Assembly (NCBI GenBank): GCA_021772935.1
Contig: JAJFLA010000046.1
Coordinates: 248,001 to 312,000, forward strand
DNA: 64,000 bases
DNA from: Gammaproteobacteria bacterium
Lineage (GTDB): Bacteria > Pseudomonadota > Gammaproteobacteria > Xanthomonadales > SZUA-36
Direction: 5' to 3'
Below, in pieces: positions 13,970 through 26,516 of the stretch. The notes under the pieces were generated by a model. The model did not search any database and was not told where the DNA came from. It worked only from the letters and a program-made list of their open reading frames with translations. A program made the position numbers and the translations under genes. Each line of letters opens with the position of its first letter. Position 1 is the stretch's first letter.

Positions 13970-14611
13970 TCAAGTGTTTTCCACCAGACCGTAACGCATC
14001 GCCATACGCACCAACTCAACCTCGCTGCGGGCACCCAGCTTTCCCAATATTCTATATTTGTAAGTCGATACGGTCTTCGGACTCAAACACATCAACGATG
14101 CTATATCCGGTACGCGACGGCCATCCGTTATCTTTAGCAAAACTTCCATTTCACGCGCAGATAGATCTTCAAAAGGCGACTCACTTGCAGACCCGGAAAA
14201 CATGGATAATGCCAGTTGCTTGGCTGCATCGCTGCCAATGTAGAGTTGACCCCCTGCCACTGTTTTAACTGCTTGAAGCAGTTCTTCAGCATCACAATCA
14301 AGGGTCAGATAACCGCTTGCGCCCGCATCCATCAACCGTGCCGGATAAGGTGGCTTGGCATGTGCCGCCAGCACAATAACGCCTGCTTTGGGGTAAATAC
14401 GCTTGAGTTTCCGGGTGACTTCAAAACCGGTTAAGCCAGCTAAATTAATACTGAGTAAAATAACATCCGGGCATTTCTTTTTGCATTGTCTGAGCGCCGC
14501 TTCCCCGGACGAAGCCTCTGTAACCTTCGTCACTTCATGACTTTGATCAAAAATATGCCGCAAACCCGTACGGACCAGTTCCTGGTCGTCTATGATGAGT
14601 ATTTGAATCAT
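13970..14611 (-). CDS. GacA/UvrY-like response regulator with a degenerate receiver
   Basis: DNA-binding regulator: receiver domain (about 1-120) and LuxR-type helix-turn-helix (about 148-205) with LSPKTVSTYKYRILGKL, closest by eye to the GacA/UvrY family; 213 residues, full length. The acidic pair Asp8-Asp9 is present, but the phosphorylated Asp is replaced by Ser54 (context ILLSINL), the switch Thr/Ser by Ala82 and the conserved Lys by Leu104 (YLTLD). It is therefore unlikely to be activated by phosphorylation. No histidine kinase is adjacent. It converges on rne and is followed upstream by an unknown kinase-like gene on the same strand. Targets are unknown. Confidence 0.88.
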   Translation of the reverse strand: MIQILIIDDQELVRTGLRHIFDQSHEVTKVTEASSGEAALRQCKKKCPDVILLSINLAGLTGFEVTRKLKRIYPKAGVIVLAAHAKPPYPARLMDAGASGYLTLDCDAEELLQAVKTVAGGQLYIGSDAAKQLALSMFSGSASESPFEDLSAREMEVLLKITDGRRVPDIASLMCLSPKTVSTYKYRILGKLGARSEVELVRMAMRYGLVENT

Positions 14612-14744
14612 GTTTCCCCCCTCAGGTTAGATTCTATTTTATTTTGATTTCGTTCCTTCGCCCCTGACCCGTTCCCTTGATAAAAAAGCCATGTTCATTT
14701 CGTGAGTAAAATGACCCAAGGCTTGTTCATTAACTATAGACACA

Positions 14745-14822
14745 GAATTTGCGTACGTCGACCGTAGATTGGAACAAATTCAAATTCAAGCTGATTTCCT
14801 ACGTGGTTTTCATCTATTGTGA
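14745..14822. repeat. Diverged direct repeat, copy A
   Basis: Resembles 16715-16794 in the same orientation, strongest over GCTGATTTC...TGGTTTTCATCTAT. In one frame both would encode a similar string (WNK..., then LISY-VFIY with synonymous changes), but here that frame is closed upstream by TAG. It may be a decayed coding fragment or a shared control region upstream of the response regulator. Confidence 0.4.
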
Positions 14823-14829
14823 CGATTTT

Positions 14830-16428
14830 TCATTCGGTGGTCCTGGTCAGAGACCCAGACAGTGTACGCACAATCACATCACAACCACGATTAAAAAAGT
14901 GTTCCACCTGTGAATCAGAACCGCCCCAAATGGGAACTGCCCTACCGATCGTAGCTGCGATATCATAAACAATAAATCGGGCCAGACCACCTGCTTTTTC
15001 CGTGCTGCTGTGAATCAACTGCACAGGGTAAGCGGCATTCCCCACCATCGGCAATAAACCAATCAGTAACGCCACCCAGGGTAGTCGCTGACCTATGAGC
15101 AAAGACTGTAGCAAGCGACTAGACGTATAAAGTGTGCGCGCAATCGAACCACCCATCATCAGTAAAACAGCGAATGTCACTTCAGATATCACACCACTAA
15201 CTAACAAAGCAGGTAACAACCCCCATTGTGTGACTTTGACCAAGGGTTTTATAACAATGTGTACACTAAAATCTGTCAGGTAACCACTCGCTTCATCCTG
15301 CTTCAGTTCAGACCGTAAACGACACGCCACATCAGGTTCTATAAAACCCCTTTTGAGCCATGTCCTGATCGAACGCGCAACTAACCAACGTGCGACACCC
15401 CAGCGATAACGGGACGACACAATATAGCGAAGGGATCTCCTTGCAGTGTAGCGATATGGGAATGTCCTTAGCCAATGGGTCATGCGTGTCACAGCCTTTC
15501 CCATAGCAGCAAATACGCGCATAAATGTGACGGGGATGATGTACACATACCACCGTAGCGGGTGGGCCCCATACCACTCGACCTGCTCATTACTCAGACG
15601 TTGTTGACTATGCTCGTAGGCAATATTTCGCTGATAACGTCGCAACGAGCGCCAGGCAGTCTGGTGCTTCTCCAATTGCGTGACATCCTGTAGCAAAGCA
15701 GCATAAGCCTCGGCATCACTAAGCTCGATGATCTGATCATGATGGTCGAGGATATAAGTTTGTAATTTATTCGTATCAACATCATCAAACAACCAACGTC
15801 TATGCTGCAACGACTTTGGAAGATAGTAGGCAATCGTGGTTATCGGGTTCATTGCAAATAATGCTGGCACGCCGGATTCCAGATCGATCCATGCCCAACG
15901 CAACCCATCCGGTGATTTGCTCTCCAGCATAAAATTATTGGCAGCAACCGGATTACCTTTACCCGCTTGCCACACAAGGCCATCAAAACCTGCTTCCTTA
16001 AGGTGTTGTTGCAAAGGTTTCATGACCTTGTCACGCAACACCTTAAAGTAATCAAACTTTCCAGTGTCTCCCGGGTATCGCAACGGCGCATGGTGTCCGT
16101 TGATAAGCTCAGAACGCAATTCAAATGCACGGTAATGCTCGTTCCATCCCCAGCCGTCGTGACGTGGAAGTTTCAAATGCACACCAAACCAGACCCTTGT
16201 GAGAGTGGTTAGTATTCTGCGGCGAATGACCGCACAAACCATCGCGTCCTCGCACCACGTATACGGATTTGCAGAGCCTGTCAGCAGGTAAAGAATCAGC
16301 TTGCTGGCGGTATCACCGGTAAAAACCTTGCGGGCGATCGGCCTGCCCTGCTGGTCATGACCAAGGTAAACGACCGCTGATCGGCCCTCCCCGACCCAGC
16401 TTTCGGAGACTGTACTGACCTCAGACAT
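14830..16428 (-). CDS. Unknown membrane protein with a kinase-like N-terminal domain
   Basis: I do not recognise a named family. The first 190 residues look like a protein-kinase-like fold: a glycine-rich loop GEGRSAVVYLG (13-23), a Lys at 34 in RKVF, a catalytic-loop-like GKGNPVAANNF (156-166) and a metal-site-like WIDLESG (180-186). The HRD sequence of classical kinases is not present. The rest is basic and amphipathic, with hydrophobic segments near 293-308, 416-437 and 461-481, so it is probably anchored in the inner membrane. 532 residues, ATG at 16428. It sits between the response regulator and the large accessory operon and may belong with them. A lipid or small-molecule kinase, or a pseudokinase, are both possible. 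Confidence 0.6.
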   Translation of the reverse strand: MSEVSTVSESWVGEGRSAVVYLGHDQQGRPIARKVFTGDTASKLILYLLTGSANPYTWCEDAMVCAVIRRRILTTLTRVWFGVHLKLPRHDGWGWNEHYRAFELRSELINGHHAPLRYPGDTGKFDYFKVLRDKVMKPLQQHLKEAGFDGLVWQAGKGNPVAANNFMLESKSPDGLRWAWIDLESGVPALFAMNPITTIAYYLPKSLQHRRWLFDDVDTNKLQTYILDHHDQIIELSDAEAYAALLQDVTQLEKHQTAWRSLRRYQRNIAYEHSQQRLSNEQVEWYGAHPLRWYVYIIPVTFMRVFAAMGKAVTRMTHWLRTFPYRYTARRSLRYIVSSRYRWGVARWLVARSIRTWLKRGFIEPDVACRLRSELKQDEASGYLTDFSVHIVIKPLVKVTQWGLLPALLVSGVISEVTFAVLLMMGGSIARTLYTSSRLLQSLLIGQRLPWVALLIGLLPMVGNAAYPVQLIHSSTEKAGGLARFIVYDIAATIGRAVPIWGGSDSQVEHFFNRGCDVIVRTLSGSLTRTTE

Positions 16429-16794: not shown

Positions 16795-17018
16795 AGCTGT
16801 TGTGTGGTTTTTCACATTATTCCGGTCTGTACATAGATACATGTGATTTTAGGAGATTGCTTGTCCTTTTGGGAGAGCTTAATAAATGAATTAAAAGAGC
16901 TCCCTGAGTTCCCGTGGGAGTCCTGGTCTTCAGGATGGATGAAGGAAAATACTTGTTAAACGGTTCACACGGGTCACCTAACTTTAATCATAAATCCATT
17001 GCTTTGGTGGAGAATCAG

Positions 17019-18233
17019 ATGAGCTACAGCTCGCGTGGGTTTGGCATACGCGGCTTACTACTCGCAGTGCTGGTCAACAGCCTGCTTATCGAGGCTCAAG
17101 CCCAGCAAGAAACTGTATCATTGGCACGCGCCGCAGAAGAAAGTAGAGGTATCACGGCGTTTCAGGATGCGCTTGATACGATTGAGTCCGAGCACGGTGC
17201 CTACGCAGATGCACTGGCCGAACCGCTTTATAGTCTTGCTTCGAGATTCCAACAAAATGACCGGCATAAAGAAGCGATCACAGCATTCAAACGGGGTCTC
17301 CACCTGACACGTATTAACCAGGGCCTCTTCAGCCTGGCACAAATCCCTTTCATCCAGGGTGAAATCACCAGTCATTTCGCCCTCAGCGAACTTCAGGCGG
17401 TTGACCAACGCCAGCGTTACCTGCTGAAGGTACAGCAACACAGTCTGCCCAGTGGTGAACCCCTTATTCAAGCACTGATGCAGCACGCCGACTGGCAGCA
17501 AAAAGCCTATGAACTTGGCCTCGATAACTTTGAGGACAGCATTATTCGTTTGCATGGCATGTGGGACCTGTATGGCGCAGCGATTGAAGACATTTTGAAA
17601 AATGATGGACCCGTTTCACTCAGGCTGTTGGCACCGCTCAACGGCTTAATGAAAACCCAATACATGATCTCCATCTATAATGCTGAAAAAATCAGAATTA
17701 ACCCAACAGTCAGCGCCCGTCAGGATGGGCTTGAAAGAGCTTTTTCACCCACTTATGTGCCGGGCAAATCAATTATCTGGTCAATCTATGAAGTGGAATT
17801 AAAACACCACGGGCAATACAGTCTGGAAGTCGCACAAACACTGGTGATGTTGGCGGACTGGATGCTATGGAGTAACAAGCCCGACTCAGCGCAGGAGACA
17901 TATACCAACGCGATAGAGGTACTTGCCAAACTTGATGACGCCGCCATACTGAAAGAACGTATATTCGGTTCGCCCATGTCGTTGCCGGATATTGATGGTT
18001 TACACGGCCTGCCCACCGCAGTGGCGACTGCTAAAGGTAAACTCCTTTTAGAATTCGGGGTTAACGCCCGTGGAAAAGTCTTCGGGATGAAACGACTGGA
18101 TCAAGTCGAGTTTAAAAAAAAGGAAGCGCAGCGATTGATGCGGAAAATCCGTAAAACGAAATTTCGGCCCCGTTATGTAGGTTTGGAAGCGGTCACTACG
18201 GAAAAGATTCAAAGGGCATATAGTGTTGAATAA
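17019..18233 (+). CDS. Secreted helical-repeat protein with TonB-like C-terminus, first gene of the accessory operon
   Basis: Not a recognised named protein. The ATG at 17019 follows a GGTGGAGA ribosome site and opens a clear signal peptide (GIRGLLLAVLVNSLLIEAQA), so the product is periplasmic; the frame stays open to 16914 but the extra residues are not signal-like. 404 residues. The body is alpha-helical with TPR-like pairs (for example EAITAFKRGLHLTRINQG). The last 55 residues (VNARGKVFGMKRL...RKIRKTKFRPRYV) resemble the C-terminal domain of TonB-type energy transducers. It overlaps the next gene by 11 bp. The TonB-like ending fits an operon that also encodes a TolQ-like protein. Confidence 0.7.
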   Translation: MSYSSRGFGIRGLLLAVLVNSLLIEAQAQQETVSLARAAEESRGITAFQDALDTIESEHGAYADALAEPLYSLASRFQQNDRHKEAITAFKRGLHLTRINQGLFSLAQIPFIQGEITSHFALSELQAVDQRQRYLLKVQQHSLPSGEPLIQALMQHADWQQKAYELGLDNFEDSIIRLHGMWDLYGAAIEDILKNDGPVSLRLLAPLNGLMKTQYMISIYNAEKIRINPTVSARQDGLERAFSPTYVPGKSIIWSIYEVELKHHGQYSLEVAQTLVMLADWMLWSNKPDSAQETYTNAIEVLAKLDDAAILKERIFGSPMSLPDIDGLHGLPTAVATAKGKLLLEFGVNARGKVFGMKRLDQVEFKKKEAQRLMRKIRKTKFRPRYVGLEAVTTEKIQRAYSVE

Positions 18234-19311
18234 ATTCATCAACGATGTGTTGAGCCACAGCCAACTAAGGTATGTTGGATTGATCATAAACTGTTTGCTA
18301 CTGAACGCCTGTGTCAGCGTAACTAAACCATCGAGTCCTTCCATACCATCGATTCCCAGTGCTTCACCGTCGAGTCCATCAAGTTCTCCAGCCAGCCCGC
18401 CTGGTTCACCGTCCAACCCGTCGAGTCCCTCACCATCCAACTCGCCACCTGCGTCTTCTAGCCCACGGCCTTCACCTCCAGCACCCCCCAGCGCTGCTAG
18501 CCCCGGGGCAATGGGTGACTTCCCACAAGGTGAAGCAGAACCGAACACACAAGATGATGACGAAGTACCAGACAACCAGGGGGACCCGGGTGCTGAGAAT
18601 CCGGATGGTAGCGTAGAAGAGTCAAACGGCAGCGAACTTGAGCCGGGTTTTGGAAGTGAGAGTGGCGATAATGACGGTTTGCCGGATCTTAGAGACGAAC
18701 CTTCACTGGAGGATACACTGGAATCTTTTGAGCATTCTACGGATCAAGCAGCTGGAGATGCTGGTGACTCAGGTGAGTCCAACAGCGGCAGCACAGGTAC
18801 AACCGGTGTGCAGAATAGGAGCTTAGAGACCAGACCGGGTGGGACCGCCGAAACTGGAAGCCGCGCTGGTGATGGATACGCTACCGGTGCGCGGACTTCG
18901 GCAGAGCAAACCAAAATCTTAAGTGATGAGTTGGAACGTCAAACCGGTGAATTTGACGCTATGATCCGTGATCAACAGGCAGCCCAGCGACGTGCAACAC
19001 GCCAGCAAACAACCATTCCTGACATGGCGACTGCCAGCGCTCAAAGTGATTCAGGGGACAGCACAGAAATAGATATCGATACCCATGAAACCAGCAGTGG
19101 TGGTGGTTTGGGTGGTCGTTCTGACACCACCGGCGGTGCAGGAATCCCTCAAAATACCGCCAAGTACCCGCCACCATCTGATATTCCTATGGGCAATGAC
19201 GATGACGTTGTTGCACGCCAGTTGCGAGAAGCGGCGATGCGCGAACCGGACCCTGAGCTTCGTCAAAAATTATGGCAGGAATATCGCAAGTACAAGGGCG
19301 TAAGTCATTGA
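18223..19311 (+). CDS. Lipoprotein with long Pro/Ser-rich and acidic linkers
   Basis: 362 residues with a lipoprotein signal ending at the lipobox LLNAC (Cys30), followed by about 60 residues almost entirely Ser and Pro, then an acidic Gly/Glu/Asp-rich stretch. The only folded-looking part is the C-terminal 50 residues (DDDVVARQLREAAMRE...LRQKLWQEYRKYK), which is helical and charged. It is likely a flexible tether from a membrane lipid to a partner in or across the periplasm. The ATG at 18223 lies inside the end of the preceding gene. Function unknown. Confidence 0.7.
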   Translation: MLNKFINDVLSHSQLRYVGLIINCLLLNACVSVTKPSSPSIPSIPSASPSSPSSSPASPPGSPSNPSSPSPSNSPPASSSPRPSPPAPPSAASPGAMGDFPQGEAEPNTQDDDEVPDNQGDPGAENPDGSVEESNGSELEPGFGSESGDNDGLPDLRDEPSLEDTLESFEHSTDQAAGDAGDSGESNSGSTGTTGVQNRSLETRPGGTAETGSRAGDGYATGARTSAEQTKILSDELERQTGEFDAMIRDQQAAQRRATRQQTTIPDMATASAQSDSGDSTEIDIDTHETSSGGGLGGRSDTTGGAGIPQNTAKYPPPSDIPMGNDDDVVARQLREAAMREPDPELRQKLWQEYRKYKGVSH

Positions 19312-20516
19312 TAACACCCTACCGCATACTAGCGTTGATAATGATCTGTGCCACACTATCAGGCTGTGTCAGCCAGACCGTTAACAGCAATTCTGTAAGC
19401 AACATAAAAACCGCAGCCAGCAACATCGAAGAAGACCTGTTGCTTGATGTCGATATAGCCATTTTCGACCCGGGCCTGGAAAACTATGAAGAGGGCCAAC
19501 AGGTATACCCGGAAGTCCGCAACGCGGAAGCCAATTATCTACCTAAGTTGCTCGCAGAAACTTTGCAAAATAGCGCTGCCTGGGGTGCAGTGCGTGTGGT
19601 ATCTGTTGCCAACAAGATCGCTGATCTGGTGATTCAAAGTAAAATTCTTTACTCCGACGGTGAAACCATACGGTTACACGTCTCCGCGACTGACTCGCGG
19701 GGTCAACTATGGCTGAACAAGGAATATCAGGGCCATGCCAGCCGTTATGCCTATACAGAGACCAGCCGGGTTCACCAGGACCCCTTCCTTTCCGTTTACA
19801 ACAATATTGCCAATGACCTTTTTGACATCCAGCAACAACTGTCGCCCGAGAATCGGAAAAACATCCGGCTGATCAGTGAGTTGTTATTTGCCCGTAGTTT
19901 TTCAGCGGATGCTTTCGATGCCTACCTTGCCCAAAATCGTAAAGGCTTGTACCAGATTAAACGTCTACCAGCAGAGGATGATCCTATGCTCGAAAGAGTC
20001 CGTAGTATCCGCGACCGGGATCTGTTGTTCATTGATACCATGCAGGAGTTCTTCATCAGTTTTAACGAAGAAATGCTCGAACCCTACCAGGAATGGCGCA
20101 AACTGAGTTATGAAGAGGCCATCGCGCTACGAGAGCTGAAAACCGAGAGCAGACGTCGTTTGATCGGTGGCGGTCTTGCCGTATTGGCAGGAATTGTCGG
20201 CGCTAGCGGCAATAGCAATGTCGGTCGTGTGGCGAGCAGCGTTGCCATTGTCGGTGGTGGCATGATGCTCAAAAGTGGCATGGAAAAACGCAACGAAGCT
20301 GAAATGCATGCAGAGTCACTGGAGGAATTAGGACAATCTTTAGGCGCGGAGATCACACCACAGGTCATAGAGCTACAAGACCGCACCGTTACTCTAAGTG
20401 GTACCGTGGAAGACCAATACACCCAGTGGCGCGAACTATTGGCTGAAATATATCGTTCGGAAATGGGCGATTTGGAACGACCCGACACAGTTGTCGATAC
20501 AGCCAATCCACGTTAA
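19308..20516 (+). CDS. Periplasmic lipoprotein, unknown function
   Basis: I propose the TTG at 19308 as start: AAGGG lies 9 bases upstream, TTG overlaps the TGA of the previous gene, and it gives a compact lipoprotein signal (MITPYRILALIMICATLSGC, Cys20). An ATG at 19272 would add 12 unlikely residues. About 402 residues. The first domain (about 35-150) looks like proteins that sense or modify envelope stress by a small alpha/beta fold, but I cannot name it. A Gly-rich hydrophobic stretch (GGGLAVLAGIVGASG and following) lies in the last third. The neighbours suggest a structural part of one envelope complex. Confidence 0.65.
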   Translation: MITPYRILALIMICATLSGCVSQTVNSNSVSNIKTAASNIEEDLLLDVDIAIFDPGLENYEEGQQVYPEVRNAEANYLPKLLAETLQNSAAWGAVRVVSVANKIADLVIQSKILYSDGETIRLHVSATDSRGQLWLNKEYQGHASRYAYTETSRVHQDPFLSVYNNIANDLFDIQQQLSPENRKNIRLISELLFARSFSADAFDAYLAQNRKGLYQIKRLPAEDDPMLERVRSIRDRDLLFIDTMQEFFISFNEEMLEPYQEWRKLSYEEAIALRELKTESRRRLIGGGLAVLAGIVGASGNSNVGRVASSVAIVGGGMMLKSGMEKRNEAEMHAESLEELGQSLGAEITPQVIELQDRTVTLSGTVEDQYTQWRELLAEIYRSEMGDLERPDTVVDTANPR

Positions 20517-20546
20517 AGCTAAATACCCTGATTCGCTGATTAATAT

Positions 20547-22076
20547 ATGTCTTCCCACAACGAGCAAATAGAACCCACCGGATTTGATACCCCGGATAAT
20601 TCCATTCCAGGTTCACTATCGGCCAGCTCGGGTAGTCGTACGAATGGAACGCCAGCCTGGGTATTGCCGATGCTGATGGTGCTGCTGGTGGCGGTTATTG
20701 GTGTTGTGTTCTGGCTACCGGGTCGTTTCAACCAGCAACCGATAGTTACATCGTCTAGTGCTGAACCTGTGTCTTCAACTTCTGTGGCAACAACTGACAG
20801 ACGTCAGGTAGCTGAGGTGGAGACCTCGCCGTGGTCAGACGCGCAAATGGCCAAACTACGCAAACAGGCCCAGGATGTCCTGACCGAGTTATTGGAAGCG
20901 CAATCCACATTGGAACAGCTTGAGGTAGTGCAATGGGCCGCAGAGGACTTTGCAGATGCAGGGGCACACGCTGCTGCTGGAGATATTGACTATCGTGAAC
21001 GGCGTTTTGAAGCAGCTCGTGTGAACTATGAAAAAGGCCTTGACGAACTACGAACCTTGCTAGAAATGTTTCCGCAGGTATTGAGAGATAATCTGGCTCG
21101 TGCGCATCAGGCGATAGATGCCGGTCAGAAAGAGACGGCTCAAGCCGCCTTGTTGATTGCAACTGCAATCGAAGCAGACAACGCAGAACTAGCCAGCTTG
21201 AAACAACGTGCGGCAGTAATGGAACAACTGTTGTCCTTATTGGCGCAGGCTGAGGAAGCAACAGCATCCTCTGAGCTCGCACTGGCTGTGCAATTATTGC
21301 AACAAGCCGTTGCACTGGATCCCCAATCCCATGCGGCCCAGTCTGAATTGGAGGTTGTGAGCAAGGCGTATACCAGGCAACGCTTCAATAAGGCGATGAG
21401 TGATGGCTACCTGGCGCTTAATATGACTCAATTTGATCGGGCAAGGTCAGCCTTCAAACAGGCGGCACAATTGGTAACTAATTCGGCAGTGGCAGCAAGC
21501 GCCCTGGATGATGTAAATACGGCCGAGACAACACAACGCCTTTCAGATCTGCAAGCCAAAGGCCAAGGCCATGTATCACAAGAGCAATGGGCAAAAGCAG
21601 TATCTGTTTTCGAACAAGCTTTGCAAATTGATGCCGGTCTGATGTTCGCCCAACAAGGTTTGAAAAGCAGCCAGGTACGTAACCATCTGGGTCAACAACT
21701 TCAGAGTGCGATTGAACAGCCCGAACGTCTGTCTGAAAAGGGCGTAGCAGAAGCCATTGCAAAATTGTTACGCTCGGCGGCCGAAATCAGTCCTCGTGGC
21801 CCTTTATTACAACAACGAATAACACAGTTGGAACTTGTGCTTAGAAGAGCCAACACACCCATTCATGTGAGCTTGCGTTCAGATATGGAAACCGAGGTAA
21901 GCTTACGCAAAGTTACTCACCTGGGTCGATTTCAGGAACATGAGTTGAGTCTGCGACCAGGCACCTACACCGCCGTTGGCAGCCGCGATGGCTACCGTGA
22001 CGTGCGGGTTACTTTTACTATCCAGCACGACACCGAGACAGCCACCGTAACCATCACCTGTACGGAACAGATATAG
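20547..22076 (+). CDS. Single-pass membrane protein with TPR-like repeats and PEGA-like tail
   Basis: 509 residues. A cytoplasmic Pro/Ser-rich N-terminus of about 36 residues is followed by one helix (37-57, WVLPMLMVLLVAVIGVVFWL), placing the rest in the periplasm. Residues about 85-410 are Ala/Gln/Leu-rich helical repeats with TPR character (for example QEQWAKAVSVFEQALQIDAG). The last 80 residues (HVSLRSDMETEVSL...LRPGTYTAVGSRDGYRDVRV) look like a PEGA beta domain. It ends 7 bp before the PEGA/FGE gene. Probably a periplasmic scaffold that binds peptidoglycan or partner proteins; no enzyme motif is visible. Confidence 0.72.
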   Translation: MSSHNEQIEPTGFDTPDNSIPGSLSASSGSRTNGTPAWVLPMLMVLLVAVIGVVFWLPGRFNQQPIVTSSSAEPVSSTSVATTDRRQVAEVETSPWSDAQMAKLRKQAQDVLTELLEAQSTLEQLEVVQWAAEDFADAGAHAAAGDIDYRERRFEAARVNYEKGLDELRTLLEMFPQVLRDNLARAHQAIDAGQKETAQAALLIATAIEADNAELASLKQRAAVMEQLLSLLAQAEEATASSELALAVQLLQQAVALDPQSHAAQSELEVVSKAYTRQRFNKAMSDGYLALNMTQFDRARSAFKQAAQLVTNSAVAASALDDVNTAETTQRLSDLQAKGQGHVSQEQWAKAVSVFEQALQIDAGLMFAQQGLKSSQVRNHLGQQLQSAIEQPERLSEKGVAEAIAKLLRSAAEISPRGPLLQQRITQLELVLRRANTPIHVSLRSDMETEVSLRKVTHLGRFQEHELSLRPGTYTAVGSRDGYRDVRVTFTIQHDTETATVTITCTEQI

Positions 22077-22083
22077 ACCGGCA

Positions 22084-24138
22084 ATGACGGATCAATCCCC
22101 TCTGACGGAACCCATCGAGCCACTGGCCTTCGAGCCACTGGCAGTCGGTAATGACAAGCGACGACGCGGCTTCAATCCATGGCGCTGGCTCCTGTTGGCA
22201 ACTGTTTTGGCCTTTGTTGCCATCATGAGTTTTCTGTTGAGTGCTCGATCAGTTCAAATAACAGTTCAGGCTGAGAGCGATGTTGACATCACACTTGACG
22301 GCGGCTGGTATCTGTCATTTGGTGAGCGCTATCTGTTACATCGCGGCCGTTACCAGGCCTCGGTTACCGCAGCAGGTTATTACCCTATTGATAGCGTCAT
22401 TAATGTCAGCGCTGAAGAGACACAGCTGGTACAACTGACGTTACGCCCGCTACCTGGCAGGCTGGATGTCGCTTCGCAACCCAGTGACGCAAAAGTGCTC
22501 ATTGACGGTGATCTGATTGGGAAAACACCAGTAAAAGCCAAGCCGGTACAGGCTGGACAACATCATTTGCGTATCGACAAAGCACGCTACCTGCCGCTGG
22601 AAAAGGAAATATCGATCCATGGGCGTGATATACAGCAGCAATTGGTGCTTCCACTTGAGCCCGCGTGGGCGGAGATCAGCATCGATAGTCAGCCACAAGG
22701 TGCGATCATACTGGTTGATGGTGAGGTTCAGGGGCGCACACCCGCAGTGGTGGAAATGCTGCAAGGAGAGCGTCAGCTAATATTGCAAAAAGAAACCTAT
22801 TCCGATTCACAACAAACGCTGATCATCGTTGCCAGTGAGAAGCAGGATCTGGGTAGACTGACACTACAAGCGGCCGCCGGTACGGTTCACTTGGTGAGTG
22901 TTCCAGGCCAGGCAAATGTGACCGTAGATGGTGAGTTTCGTGGTCAGACACCACTCAAGCTGACACTTAGCCCAGGACAACAACACACGCTGGCTGTATT
23001 TAAACCGGGTTACCAGCACTACACCAGCGAACTTGAACTAAGCGCTGGTACCCACCACAACCGTCGTGTTGAGCTGTTGCCACACCTGGGGGAGGTGCAC
23101 TTCAATATTGAGCCTCAAACAGCCATATTGATGATCGATGGTCAAGCACAGGGACAGGGCTCACGTCGTCTGGAATTGCCCGCAACTGAGCACAGCGTGG
23201 AAGTAGTATTAGAAGGCTATGCCAGCGTACATCGAAAGGTCACACCCCGTACCGGCCTGCAACAGGTGGTAACGGTCACGCTGGTGACTGAGCGTGAGGC
23301 ACAATTGTCAAAGCTCAAGCCAGAAGTGAACACTTTATTGGGTCAAACCTTGTTATTGTTCACACCGGACGACTTCATCATGGGAGCTTCGCGCCGGGAA
23401 CCTGGTCGCCGCCCCAATGAAGTGTTGCACCCGGTTTCTCTCAGCCGTATGTTTTACCTGCAGACAACCGAAATCACCAATGCAGAATTTCGTATTTTCC
23501 TGGCATCGCACAGTTCCGGTCAAATTGAAGCCAACAGCCTGAACCGTGAGCACCAACCCGTGGTGCAAGTCAGCTGGCAACAGGCAGCACAGTTCTGTAA
23601 CTGGCTTAGTACGAAAGAAGGGCTGACACCCTTTTACAGACAAGCCAAAGGAATCGTGACCGGTTACAACCGCGATGCTATCGGTTATCGCCTGCCGACC
23701 GAAGCTGAATGGGCATGGGCAGCAAGAGTACAAGCAGACCTGCTGTTGAAGTTTCCCTGGGGCGAATCCTTCCCACCGACCGAGGCTGTCGAAAACTATG
23801 CCGACAGAGGTTCGGCCCATGTCACTGGTCGTGTTCTGAATAAGTATCAGGACGGGCATGTGGTGAGTGCCACTGTAGGATCTTATCCAGCCAACAAAAA
23901 AGGCCTCTACGATATGGGTGGCAATGTGGCCGAATGGGTCCACGATGTATATCTCACAGCCTCGAGTGATGCGATCGGTCCGGCAGACCCAACCGGACCA
24001 CAATCCGGTGACAATTACGTCATACGTGGTGCTAGTTGGGCACATAGCAGAATTTCTGAATTACGTCTGTCGTTCCGTGATTACGGGCAAGCCGGTCGTG
24101 ATGACGTAGGCTTTCGTATTGCACGGTATGTGGAGTAA
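22084..24138 (+). CDS. PEGA-repeat membrane protein with C-terminal sulfatase-modifying-factor (FGE) fold
   Basis: 684 residues: short cytoplasmic tail, one helix (34-53), about four PEGA repeats (about 125-410; each has an IDG or VDG turn followed by GKTP, GRTP or GQTP), then an FGE/SUMF1-type domain (about 422-684) with FIMGASRREPGRRPNE, RLPTEAEWAWAAR, GGNVAEWVHD and a GFRIARY ending. The catalytic Cys pair of formylglycine-generating enzymes is absent from the ending region (RGASWAHSRISELRLSFRD), so I expect a binding role rather than sulfatase activation. The whole domain architecture faces the periplasm and follows the TPR/PEGA gene directly. Confidence 0.85.
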   Translation: MTDQSPLTEPIEPLAFEPLAVGNDKRRRGFNPWRWLLLATVLAFVAIMSFLLSARSVQITVQAESDVDITLDGGWYLSFGERYLLHRGRYQASVTAAGYYPIDSVINVSAEETQLVQLTLRPLPGRLDVASQPSDAKVLIDGDLIGKTPVKAKPVQAGQHHLRIDKARYLPLEKEISIHGRDIQQQLVLPLEPAWAEISIDSQPQGAIILVDGEVQGRTPAVVEMLQGERQLILQKETYSDSQQTLIIVASEKQDLGRLTLQAAAGTVHLVSVPGQANVTVDGEFRGQTPLKLTLSPGQQHTLAVFKPGYQHYTSELELSAGTHHNRRVELLPHLGEVHFNIEPQTAILMIDGQAQGQGSRRLELPATEHSVEVVLEGYASVHRKVTPRTGLQQVVTVTLVTEREAQLSKLKPEVNTLLGQTLLLFTPDDFIMGASRREPGRRPNEVLHPVSLSRMFYLQTTEITNAEFRIFLASHSSGQIEANSLNREHQPVVQVSWQQAAQFCNWLSTKEGLTPFYRQAKGIVTGYNRDAIGYRLPTEAEWAWAARVQADLLLKFPWGESFPPTEAVENYADRGSAHVTGRVLNKYQDGHVVSATVGSYPANKKGLYDMGGNVAEWVHDVYLTASSDAIGPADPTGPQSGDNYVIRGASWAHSRISELRLSFRDYGQAGRDDVGFRIARYVE

Positions 24139-24141
24139 AAC

Positions 24142-24441
24142 ATGCACAGCTCATCCAGATTTAAACATCCACTCAGCCTTATCCTGTTGATACTGCTATT
24201 GACTGTAGGTGGCTTGTCACTGGCAGCACAAAAGGCTGAAGATCCGGCTGACAGCGAGCAGACGCCTGCCAGTCAACAGCAATACAATGAGAATACGCCA
24301 ACCATGCCGTCTGTCCCTGATGCCGACAACGACCCCGCTGCGGCTCCCGAAGTCAAAAAAGCAGACAGCGATGTTTTCGATTACCAGCCTTCGGAGAAAA
24401 TCTCCGAAGACCTGTCAGTATCGTTCCCTGTAGATATTTAG
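24142..24441 (+). CDS. Small secreted protein
   Basis: 99 residues: a signal peptide (about 1-30, with LSLILLILLLTVGGLSLAAQ) and an acidic Gln/Ala/Pro-rich mature part without Cys. It starts 3 bp after the PEGA/FGE stop and ends just before the channel-subunit gene. Not recognised. Its place suggests a small accessory of the MotA/TolQ-like protein. Confidence 0.6.
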   Translation: MHSSSRFKHPLSLILLILLLTVGGLSLAAQKAEDPADSEQTPASQQQYNENTPTMPSVPDADNDPAAAPEVKKADSDVFDYQPSEKISEDLSVSFPVDI

Positions 24442-24450
24442 GACATGAAC

Positions 24451-25248
24451 ATGAAACACAATCTGTCTTCCGAATTTATTTTTCAGCTATTTGCACTGCT
24501 GATTACGATCGTTGTTGTGCACGCTGTTTACGTCGGGATCATCCGACCAAGTGCGAATGCACAGTTGCAGCATCAAATGGAACGACAGCTTGCCGGCGAA
24601 GACTTCGTGCCTGAACGCAGCCTGGCCGTAGTGGTTCGTGATTACGAGCAGGAGACCTGTTTTATCTTGTTATTTTGGGCCTTGGCCATTATGGGCTACA
24701 AAGGCCGCCTGTCCCTGCAGGAGAAAGCCATTCATCGTCAGGGCCTGCTGGAGATACCCGACGGAACCAGTGTATTACCACAGGATGCGCGCGAGTACAG
24801 CCGTTCATTGGAGGCATTGCCGCGTACAGAGCAAAACTTTCTATTGCCGAGAACATTGCTTTCAGGTTTGCAACGTTTTGCCACCACGGCAAGTATCCAG
24901 GCGGTGTCCACCACCATCAAGGAACAATGTGAGCTGGAATCGGACCGTCTCGATTCGGAGTTATCGATGGTCCGCTACATCGCGTGGGCAATCCCATCTA
25001 TCGGTTTCATCGGTACTGTACGTGGTATCGGTGATGCCCTGGGTCAAGCTTATAAGGCTGTCGAGGGGGATATCACCGGTGTGACAATCAGCCTTGGTGT
25101 GGCCTTTAATAGCACCTTTGTTGCACTGGTTCTGAGCATCATCATCATGTTTTGTCTGCATCAGTTGCAGTTGTCACAAGAGCGCGTTGTGCTGGATTGC
25201 CAGCGTTATGCTGATCAACGTCTTTTAAGTCACCTGGAGGTCCATTGA
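24451..25248 (+). CDS. MotA/TolQ/ExbB-like proton channel subunit
   Basis: Predicted inner-membrane stator-type channel protein. I choose the ATG at 24451, 7 bases after AGGA; another ATG at 24445 has almost no spacing. About 265 residues. From the upstream ATG, helices lie near 12-33, 70-85, 176-194 and 212-239. The last two match the family core: SIGFIGTVRGIGDALG corresponds to the LGTVxGI motif and GVTISLGVAFNSTFVALVLSI to the second pore helix. A roughly 90-residue cytoplasmic loop with Arg and Glu lies between helices 2 and 3. Its likely partners are the two VWA proteins encoded downstream, which carry ExbD/MotB-like helices. Confidence 0.82.
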   Translation: MKHNLSSEFIFQLFALLITIVVVHAVYVGIIRPSANAQLQHQMERQLAGEDFVPERSLAVVVRDYEQETCFILLFWALAIMGYKGRLSLQEKAIHRQGLLEIPDGTSVLPQDAREYSRSLEALPRTEQNFLLPRTLLSGLQRFATTASIQAVSTTIKEQCELESDRLDSELSMVRYIAWAIPSIGFIGTVRGIGDALGQAYKAVEGDITGVTISLGVAFNSTFVALVLSIIIMFCLHQLQLSQERVVLDCQRYADQRLLSHLEVH

Positions 25249-25250
25249 AC

Positions 25251-26516
25251 ATGAGTGTAGCCTTGCTCGACATCAATGACTGCAACCTGCAGTTGTGGCA
25301 TGGCGAGCAATTGTTGCAAAGCCCTGGGTACGCATTACTGGAGGGCGAACAATACCGTTTTGGCATGCCAGCCTGCAGTGTGGCAAGACTACGCCCCAGG
25401 GATATTAATAGCCGTTACTGGTGGCAACTCAATACCAAAGCCCTGAAAAACTCACTGGGCCCGGCCAGACACACAGCAGATCTCGTGCATGCCCACTTGC
25501 TGGAAATTCACGAACTAGCCGGACAACCAGAAGAACTGATACTTGTAGCCCCCTCCAGTATGCAACGAGAACAACTGTCCCTGTTGCTCGGTATTATTCA
25601 GCAATGTCCGTTCAACGCCGTGGGTCTGATCAACCGGAGCGTTGCCCTGGCGAGCCTATATGGCGGGCCAGGTAAGTTCTATCACCTTGAGATTCAGTTA
25701 CACCAAGCCGTCATTTCCGAGTTGAGCAACGATAATGGCAGGGTCGAACTGCAAAAGGTGTCGCCCTTGCCTGGTTGCGGATGGTTGCAACTTCAAGAGC
25801 ATTTGGTGGGCATCATTGCCCGGGTTTTTATCCGCCAAACCCGCTTCGACCCACGCCGCAAAGCAGAAACCGAGCAGTGCTTGTATGACCAGGTACCTGG
25901 CCTGCTGGGTGCTCTGGAAAACCAGGGGGAATACCAGCTGGAAATAGCGGGTTACCGCGCATCTGTCAGCCGCAGTGATTTGCTGGCCGCGACCGAGTCC
26001 TTGCGACAAAGTATCACCGTTGCCATCGGTACCCCAGATCCAGATGAGCGTATCATTCTGGAGCCACTGGCAGGATCTTTACCCGGCTTTTTTGAACAGT
26101 TTTCAGCAGCGGAGCGAATCGCTGACCAAGCCTTGTTGCAGGCGGTAAAACAGCACCAACCCTTGCTCTTACAACGCGAGCAGACACTAAATTTCGTTAC
26201 TTCGCTACCAAGTTTGACCCCGGTAACGTCACCACCAAGCGTAAGCTTGATCGCAGATAAGCACCCGCACCAGGCAGTGACACCAACCCACATGCTGGAG
26301 TGTGGCCGTGCAACACTGTTGACCGTCGATGGCATGAAGGTGGACTTGAAATGTGAATTGTACTGCCACGATGGTCATTGGCAACTGCGTGGTGACAAGC
26401 TAGAGACTGTGCGTGTCAATGGCCTTGCCTATGAGTCCGGCCAGGTATTGTATAGCGGCGATAAACTATCCACGGCGACAGGTCGTGACATTTCCCTGAT
26501 CGAAGTAGTGGGCTGA
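25251..26516 (+). CDS. Degenerate Hsp70/actin-like protein with FHA-like C-terminus
   Basis: About 421 residues from the ATG at 25251 (GGAGG 10 bases upstream); a TTG at 25245 overlapping the previous stop is an alternative. No signal peptide, so cytoplasmic. The start (VALLDINDCNLQLWHG...SPGYALL) and the middle (FYHLEIQLHQAVISEL...DPRRKAETEQCLYDQVP) fit an Hsp70-like ATPase fold, but the usual acidic and Gly-rich phosphate motifs are eroded, so ATP binding is doubtful. The last 75 residues (CELYCHDGHWQLRG...VRVNG...GQVLYSGDKLS) resemble an FHA beta sandwich. It may be the cytoplasmic regulator of the channel and VWA proteins. Function inferred only from fold impressions. Confidence 0.6.
   Translation: MSVALLDINDCNLQLWHGEQLLQSPGYALLEGEQYRFGMPACSVARLRPRDINSRYWWQLNTKALKNSLGPARHTADLVHAHLLEIHELAGQPEELILVAPSSMQREQLSLLLGIIQQCPFNAVGLINRSVALASLYGGPGKFYHLEIQLHQAVISELSNDNGRVELQKVSPLPGCGWLQLQEHLVGIIARVFIRQTRFDPRRKAETEQCLYDQVPGLLGALENQGEYQLEIAGYRASVSRSDLLAATESLRQSITVAIGTPDPDERIILEPLAGSLPGFFEQFSAAERIADQALLQAVKQHQPLLLQREQTLNFVTSLPSLTPVTSPPSVSLIADKHPHQAVTPTHMLECGRATLLTVDGMKVDLKCELYCHDGHWQLRGDKLETVRVNGLAYESGQVLYSGDKLSTATGRDISLIEVVG

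Follow-up and report, generated by a model that had tools for sequence, protein, structure and literature searches.

A GacA/UvrY-type regulator gene beside rne

The window, i.e. the 64,000-nucleotide stretch of DNA analysed here, carries on its minus strand a two-domain response regulator gene, hereafter gacA, with the following features.

13970 to 14611, minus strand: gene of an aspartate-less GacA/UvrY-type response regulator (P0001), 213 amino acids (open reading frame and translation, Pfam, NCBIfam)
14264 to 14602, minus strand: pseudo-receiver domain, residues 4-116, with D8, D9 and Y101 kept (Pfam and alignment)
14000 to 14164, minus strand: LuxR/GerE-type helix-turn-helix (HTH), residues 150-204, the best-conserved part of the gene in the genus (Pfam and alignment)

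Pfam detects Response_reg at 87.6 bits over residues 4-116 and GerE at 57.9 bits over residues 150-204. The top NCBIfam model is NF007018 (UvrY/SirA/GacA), which scores 225.5 bits and does not reach its cut-off of 280. This shortfall reflects distance and not the lost site described below, since relatives with an intact D/[TS]/K site also stay under the cut-off: three of them reach 236.7, 251.9 and 242.5 bits, all eight relatives scored (these three included) fall below 280, and only E. coli UvrY passes, at 450.9 bits. The 213-residue protein and E. coli UvrY are reciprocal best matches in a comparison of four regulators per side (42% identity, 190 bits; next 115 and 100). A single GacA-class match was found in the source genome (completeness 98%, contamination 2.3%), the next regulators being 27-31% identical, and an order-wide tree, in which the long branches of EvgA and RcsB are unreliably placed, puts the protein among GacA-class sequences. 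Judged from these sequence comparisons, the gene is a GacA/UvrY orthologue and so encodes the Gac/Bar output regulator. Features shared with GacA/UvrY/SirA (NF007018) are the full-length alignment, the NarL/FixJ architecture and a near-identical HTH recognition stretch, SPKTV..Y.YR; the protein differs from them in the absence of Asp54, Thr82 and Lys104, in a score under the equivalog cut-off, in the absence of a BarA-type sensor domain from 61 genomes, and in a gene position beside rne rather than uvrC.

The AlphaFold model (pLDDT 86.2) adopts the fold of NarL-type regulators, and full-length structures of the NarL family, such as EvgA (Z 23.4, rmsd 2.3 over 203 residues), are among the PDB matches listed. 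The receiver fold is accordingly predicted to be preserved in this single-chain model, in which active and inactive states are indistinguishable.

Upstream of gacA the window contains two further elements.

14830 to 16428, minus strand: gene of a 532-residue protein, directly upstream of gacA and codirectional
16914 to 26516, plus strand: accessory run of TPR proteins, proline/serine-rich and lipoprotein-like ORFs, a PEGA and FGE-sulfatase protein and a MotA/ExbB-type channel protein

The 532-residue protein has no match in Pfam or NCBIfam. As in the source genome, rne adjoins gacA in 18 of 20 loci from relatives; of the remaining two, one holds a gacA fragment only and the other lies on a contig that ends before rne is recognised. 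Neither the 532-residue gene nor the operon from 16914 was detected in any of these 20 loci, some of which are short on that side. Since rne is kept beside gacA while the operon and the 532-residue gene were not seen in the relatives' loci, gacA is read as a stand-alone gene whose closeness to the accessory operon looks accidental, and the initial annotation's proposal that the regulator may control this operon was not borne out. On the other side of gacA, eight of ten genes in the relatives have family matches (seven kinds), one has TPR repeats only and one is without a match. No GAC-box-like site with up to three mismatches lies between 14612 and 17019. An exact GAC box occurs once in 61 genomes, inside a coding ORF, and boxes with up to three mismatches are not enriched in the window, numbering 16 against 22.65 expected; on these counts the idea that gacA regulates itself or the operon through GAC boxes was rejected.

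Loss of the phosphorylation site

Three codons of the receiver, identified from the sequence and the alignment, depart from the canonical site.

14450 to 14452, minus strand: codon 54, AGT (Ser), where the phosphoacceptor Asp is missing
14366 to 14368, minus strand: codon 82, GCG (Ala), replacing the conserved Thr/Ser
14300 to 14302, minus strand: codon 104, CTT (Leu), replacing the conserved Lys

The initial annotation had described, at the correct coordinates but with no strand given, a GacA/UvrY-like regulator devoid of its phosphorylation site through Ser54, Ala82 and Leu104, with the acidic pair and the DNA-binding half retained, and both statements hold, D8/D9 and the HTH being intact (Pfam Response_reg and GerE). 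The aspartate has not merely shifted position, which the initial annotation had named as the refuting case: the alignment is gapless around the site, and positions 50-57 of the protein contain no acidic residue. Assembly error is excluded as the cause of the missing Asp54, because all 10 genomes of the genus examined are without it. The proline at D+4 is also gone from the 213-residue protein (A58), and is kept in eight of the nine full genus members. The protein is seen as a receiver by Pfam and lacks the residues for phosphotransfer, i.e. it is a pseudo-receiver. Phosphorylation of GacA at the canonical site is hence predicted to be impossible in this genus, and, going by receiver chemistry as outlined in a recent review (PMC12632262), losing the phosphoacceptor along with the two remaining phosphate contacts rules out the standard switch. 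For Shewanella UvrY carrying D54N, phosphotransfer from BarA was not seen, according to the portion of PMC3171408 that deals with it.

Another residue could in principle have taken over as acceptor, namely D8, D9, Ser54 via a serine kinase, or D56. The candidates are present to a varying extent: D9 in 9/9 and D8 in 8/9 full genus members, Ser54 in nine of the ten genomes, and D56, two residues beyond the canonical position, in two of nine (L025 and L026), where column 54 is still Ser or Asn. However, one genus member has Asn and g9 has Ala at position 54, residue 56 is Asn in the 213-residue protein, and A82 together with R, L or M at 104 takes away the two other phosphate contacts, so that we regard alternative phosphorylation as very improbable.

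Distribution and order of the changes

The family comprises 39 genomes in our sample, of which ten belong to the source genus (g1). Asp54 is absent from all ten, with Ser in nine and Asn in one; the set consists of nine full genes (eight Ser, one Asn) and a 74-residue fragment at a contig end (Ser). All nine full genes encode Ala82, and residue 104 is Arg in seven, Leu in the source genome and Met in one. A single species outside the genus (g9, L029) combines Ala54, Ala82 and Arg104. Across the order, D54/[TS]82/K104 is intact in 130 of 149 GacA-class sequences, a set made up of 32 family sequences, 20 order sequences and other matches at E <= 1e-38 in 141 genomes, with weaker matches such as G060 and second copies left out. 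Every one of the 19 exceptions carries Ala82, while 10 are without Asp54 and 11 without Lys104; nine keep Asp54, one of them with Arg104. In two Asp54-bearing relatives with Ala82 from g11 (L034 and L187), the second acidic residue is gone as well, with D-S for D-D at positions 8-9, which is another route of active-site decay.

In a tree computed without columns 54, 82 and 104 the 19 exceptions form a single clade (support 100/97), on which residue 82 changed once, residue 54 at least twice and residue 104 at least three times. Since all 19 have Ala82 and only 10 lack Asp54, Ala82 arose first and Asp54 was lost later. This succession suggests that the protein could already do without phosphorylation by the time Asp54 disappeared. 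The aspartate was perhaps lost twice, in genus g1 and in genus g9; the placement of g9 that implies two losses has moderate support (89/90), and one common loss in g1 and g9 is not rejected (p-AU 0.134).

Selection on the receiver and on the DNA-binding half

The gene is under purifying selection in the genus. Nei-Gojobori counting in the genus, where synonymous sites are close to saturated (median pS 0.76), yields a pN/pS of 0.204 over the whole gene, with the receiver at 0.262 and the HTH at 0.096. The corresponding values in relatives with an intact site are 0.184, 0.196 and 0.143; the neighbouring genes of the genus give 0.077 (rne), 0.145 (lolC) and 0.279 (rluC). Receiver constraint dropped stepwise relative to the DNA-binding half: two intact groups show a receiver/HTH divergence ratio of 1.26 and 1.19, the D54/A82 group one of 2.27 and the genus one of 3.44. 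These values are descriptive, carry no p value and derive from non-independent pairs. In the HTH, 49 of 65 columns are invariant among nine genus members versus 39 of 65 in intact relatives.

These figures bear on the notion of a decaying gene, in which the phosphorelay has been lost and the regulator drifts though it is still present. The falling receiver constraint and the loss of the proline at D+4 in the 213-residue protein would fit such decay. However, the ORF is intact in 9/9 full genus genes, the whole-gene pN/pS stays at 0.204 with synonymous sites near saturation, the upstream region is conserved, and the HTH is stricter than in intact relatives, which is not expected of a decaying gene; decay is therefore quite improbable.

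The same data address a receiver that is still gated, with a small molecule or a partner acting on the old pocket region or on the alpha4-beta5-alpha5 face in place of the phosphorylation input. Ligand-gated pseudo-receivers do exist, as noted in the review cited above (PMC12632262), and some receiver elements are well kept in the genus: beta5 is invariant (4/4 columns, where relatives with an intact site have 2/4), and conservation of the beta4-alpha4 loop (3/6 against 1/6) and of alpha4 (4/7 against 3/7) at least equals that in these relatives. On the other hand, the receiver as a whole has lost constraint versus the HTH (ratio 3.44 versus about 1.2), R, L or M has taken the place of K104 with no new invariant pocket residue found, and D54-bearing relatives already have the conserved HAK.PYP stretch. 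Gating of this kind thus appears rather unlikely, and of the two mechanisms covered by the initial annotation, action without a kinase and ligand binding, the first is favoured because the receiver lost constraint stepwise while the HTH did not.

Kinase and Csr components

The sensor domain of BarA/GacS, sCache_4, was detected in none of the 61 genomes of the order sample (G000-G060), the E. coli control being positive, and no candidate exceeded the cut-off of the BarA model when the best 12 per genome were scored; the matches to this model are generic hybrid kinases. Most of the 61 genomes, though without sCache_4, carry CsrA as well as a GacA whose D/[TS]/K site is intact. Kinase loss alone thus does not explain the loss of the site, because sCache_4 is also missing where GacA is intact, and another kinase presumably acts on the intact GacA proteins of the order. 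CsrA is encoded in the source genome, in nine of ten genus genomes and in 50 of the 61 genomes searched. In 31 genomes no Csr-type RNA (RsmZ, CsrB) scored high enough to pass the Rfam cut-off. RsmZ matches below threshold (29.4 bits at most, where 44 is required) were discarded; the six loci compared have no flanking genes in common and the matches look like chance.

The upstream region of gacA

The region preceding gacA contains recurring elements.

14612 to 14803, minus strand: upstream region and leader of gacA, which in the family show a recurring TGTAGGAAAT-like box, CTATAGT and the leader element GGGTCA
14733 to 14761, minus strand: promoter-like pair TCGACG - 17 nt - TATAGT (upstream alignment; putative promoter)
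14794 to 14803, minus strand: CGTAGGAAAT, the source-genome copy of the TGTAGGAAAT-like motif that recurs before the gacA genes of relatives (upstream alignment)

CTATAGT is invariant in 9/9 genus members in the alignment of upstream regions. A regulon defined by the upstream motif TGTAGGAAATTTGCCCG was rejected: of 21 sites with at most two mismatches in 39 genomes only three precede gacA, 13 are located inside ORFs and five are scattered between genes. On the five intergenic loci, Rfam returned only a tRNA and an overlapping sub-threshold match. A GGA-rich candidate RNA following the TGTAGGAAATTTGCCCG site in L211 was dropped, its L207 counterpart reading into a gene. Near position 1182 of L207 and near 1501 of L211, a paired TGACATNNATGTC-type repeat occurs beside a TGTAGGAAATTTGCTCG site, with similar neighbour genes. 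Control of the gacA leader by CsrA was likewise rejected: A(N)GGA seemed common on inspection, but it is not enriched over dinucleotide shuffles in nine genus members (lowest p 0.19).

Proposed mode of action

Based on the comparisons above, the reading that we regard as narrowly probable is that of a GacA with an aspartate-less pseudo-receiver, active in the absence of phosphorylation and probably regulated through its quantity. From the initial annotation it keeps the GacA/UvrY type, the unusable canonical site and the preserved DNA-binding half, and it drops the link to the accessory operon. Among the options, constitutive DNA binding regulated by protein quantity agrees best with the data, because the HTH and the upstream region are conserved while the receiver is relaxing. 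GacA of this genus would bind its DNA sites in the unphosphorylated form, with the pseudo-receiver acting chiefly as a scaffold for dimerisation, and its output would be set by the quantity that the cell makes. Against a bare scaffold, the receiver is still selected (pN/pS 0.262), more than a scaffold might need. It also counts against the reading that the searches for GAC boxes, Csr-type RNAs and further upstream-motif sites revealed no target. As for its origin, we tentatively suggest that T82A first uncoupled the receiver in one clade and that the dispensable Asp54 was then lost, probably twice (g1 and g9), yielding a constitutively active GacA set by expression; we hold this history with less than even confidence.

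The regulator may instead depend on a partner, forming a heterodimer with another regulator of the NarL/FixJ type. BldM-WhiI of Streptomyces provides a precedent, as reported in PMC4125116, and among the other NarL-type regulators of the source genome, L002, L003 and L004 are full-length and have an intact D/[TS]/K. These are, however, only 24-31% identical, and none of them emerged as a partner conserved together with GacA, which makes partner dependence improbable.

Both constitutively active pseudo-receivers and regulation through availability are covered in the review PMC12632262, where one recent estimate puts pseudo-receivers at ~6% of bacterial receivers and their on/off switching is called a mystery. 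With ChxR, HP1043, GlnR and RitR, as presented there, the 213-residue protein shares a PF00072 match, missing active-site residues, a predicted receiver fold and, presumably, activity without Asp phosphorylation. Unlike these regulators, it arose inside the GacA lineage, with D54-bearing intermediates extant, and compared with other pseudo-receivers it has lost all three phosphate-contacting residues and kept both acidic ones. Transcription activation independent of phosphorylation is also a feature of SsoR of Shewanella, which, unlike GacA of the present genus, belongs to the OmpR/PhoB family and keeps its Asp and phosphorylation pocket, as far as described in the relevant part of PMC11045786. 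The main text of the pseudo-receiver review (PMC12632262) never uses the word 'GacA', and a literature search at the level of listings, with subscription papers mostly outside its scope, found no report of a GacA/UvrY without the Asp.

Intact, intermediate and phosphosite-free states of one global regulator thus occur in close relatives, and therefore the order of the steps and the function of each state are directly testable, protein versus protein. If the proposed reading is correct, the clade would represent a still-readable natural series of a global two-component regulator freed from its kinase.

Linkage of gacA and uvrC

In E. coli, uvrY adjoins uvrC. In the source genome uvrC is located ~14.5 kb from gacA on the same contig, just outside the window (G000:C41:245661-247457), perhaps a trace of an E. 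coli-like gacA-uvrC neighbourhood. On draft assemblies uvrC is found on a separate contig in G040, G043, G056, G057, G038, G014 and G044, and it lies ~50 kb from gacA in G041; G002, G010, G027, G007 and G054 likewise have the two genes linked, at distances of about 13-24 kb.
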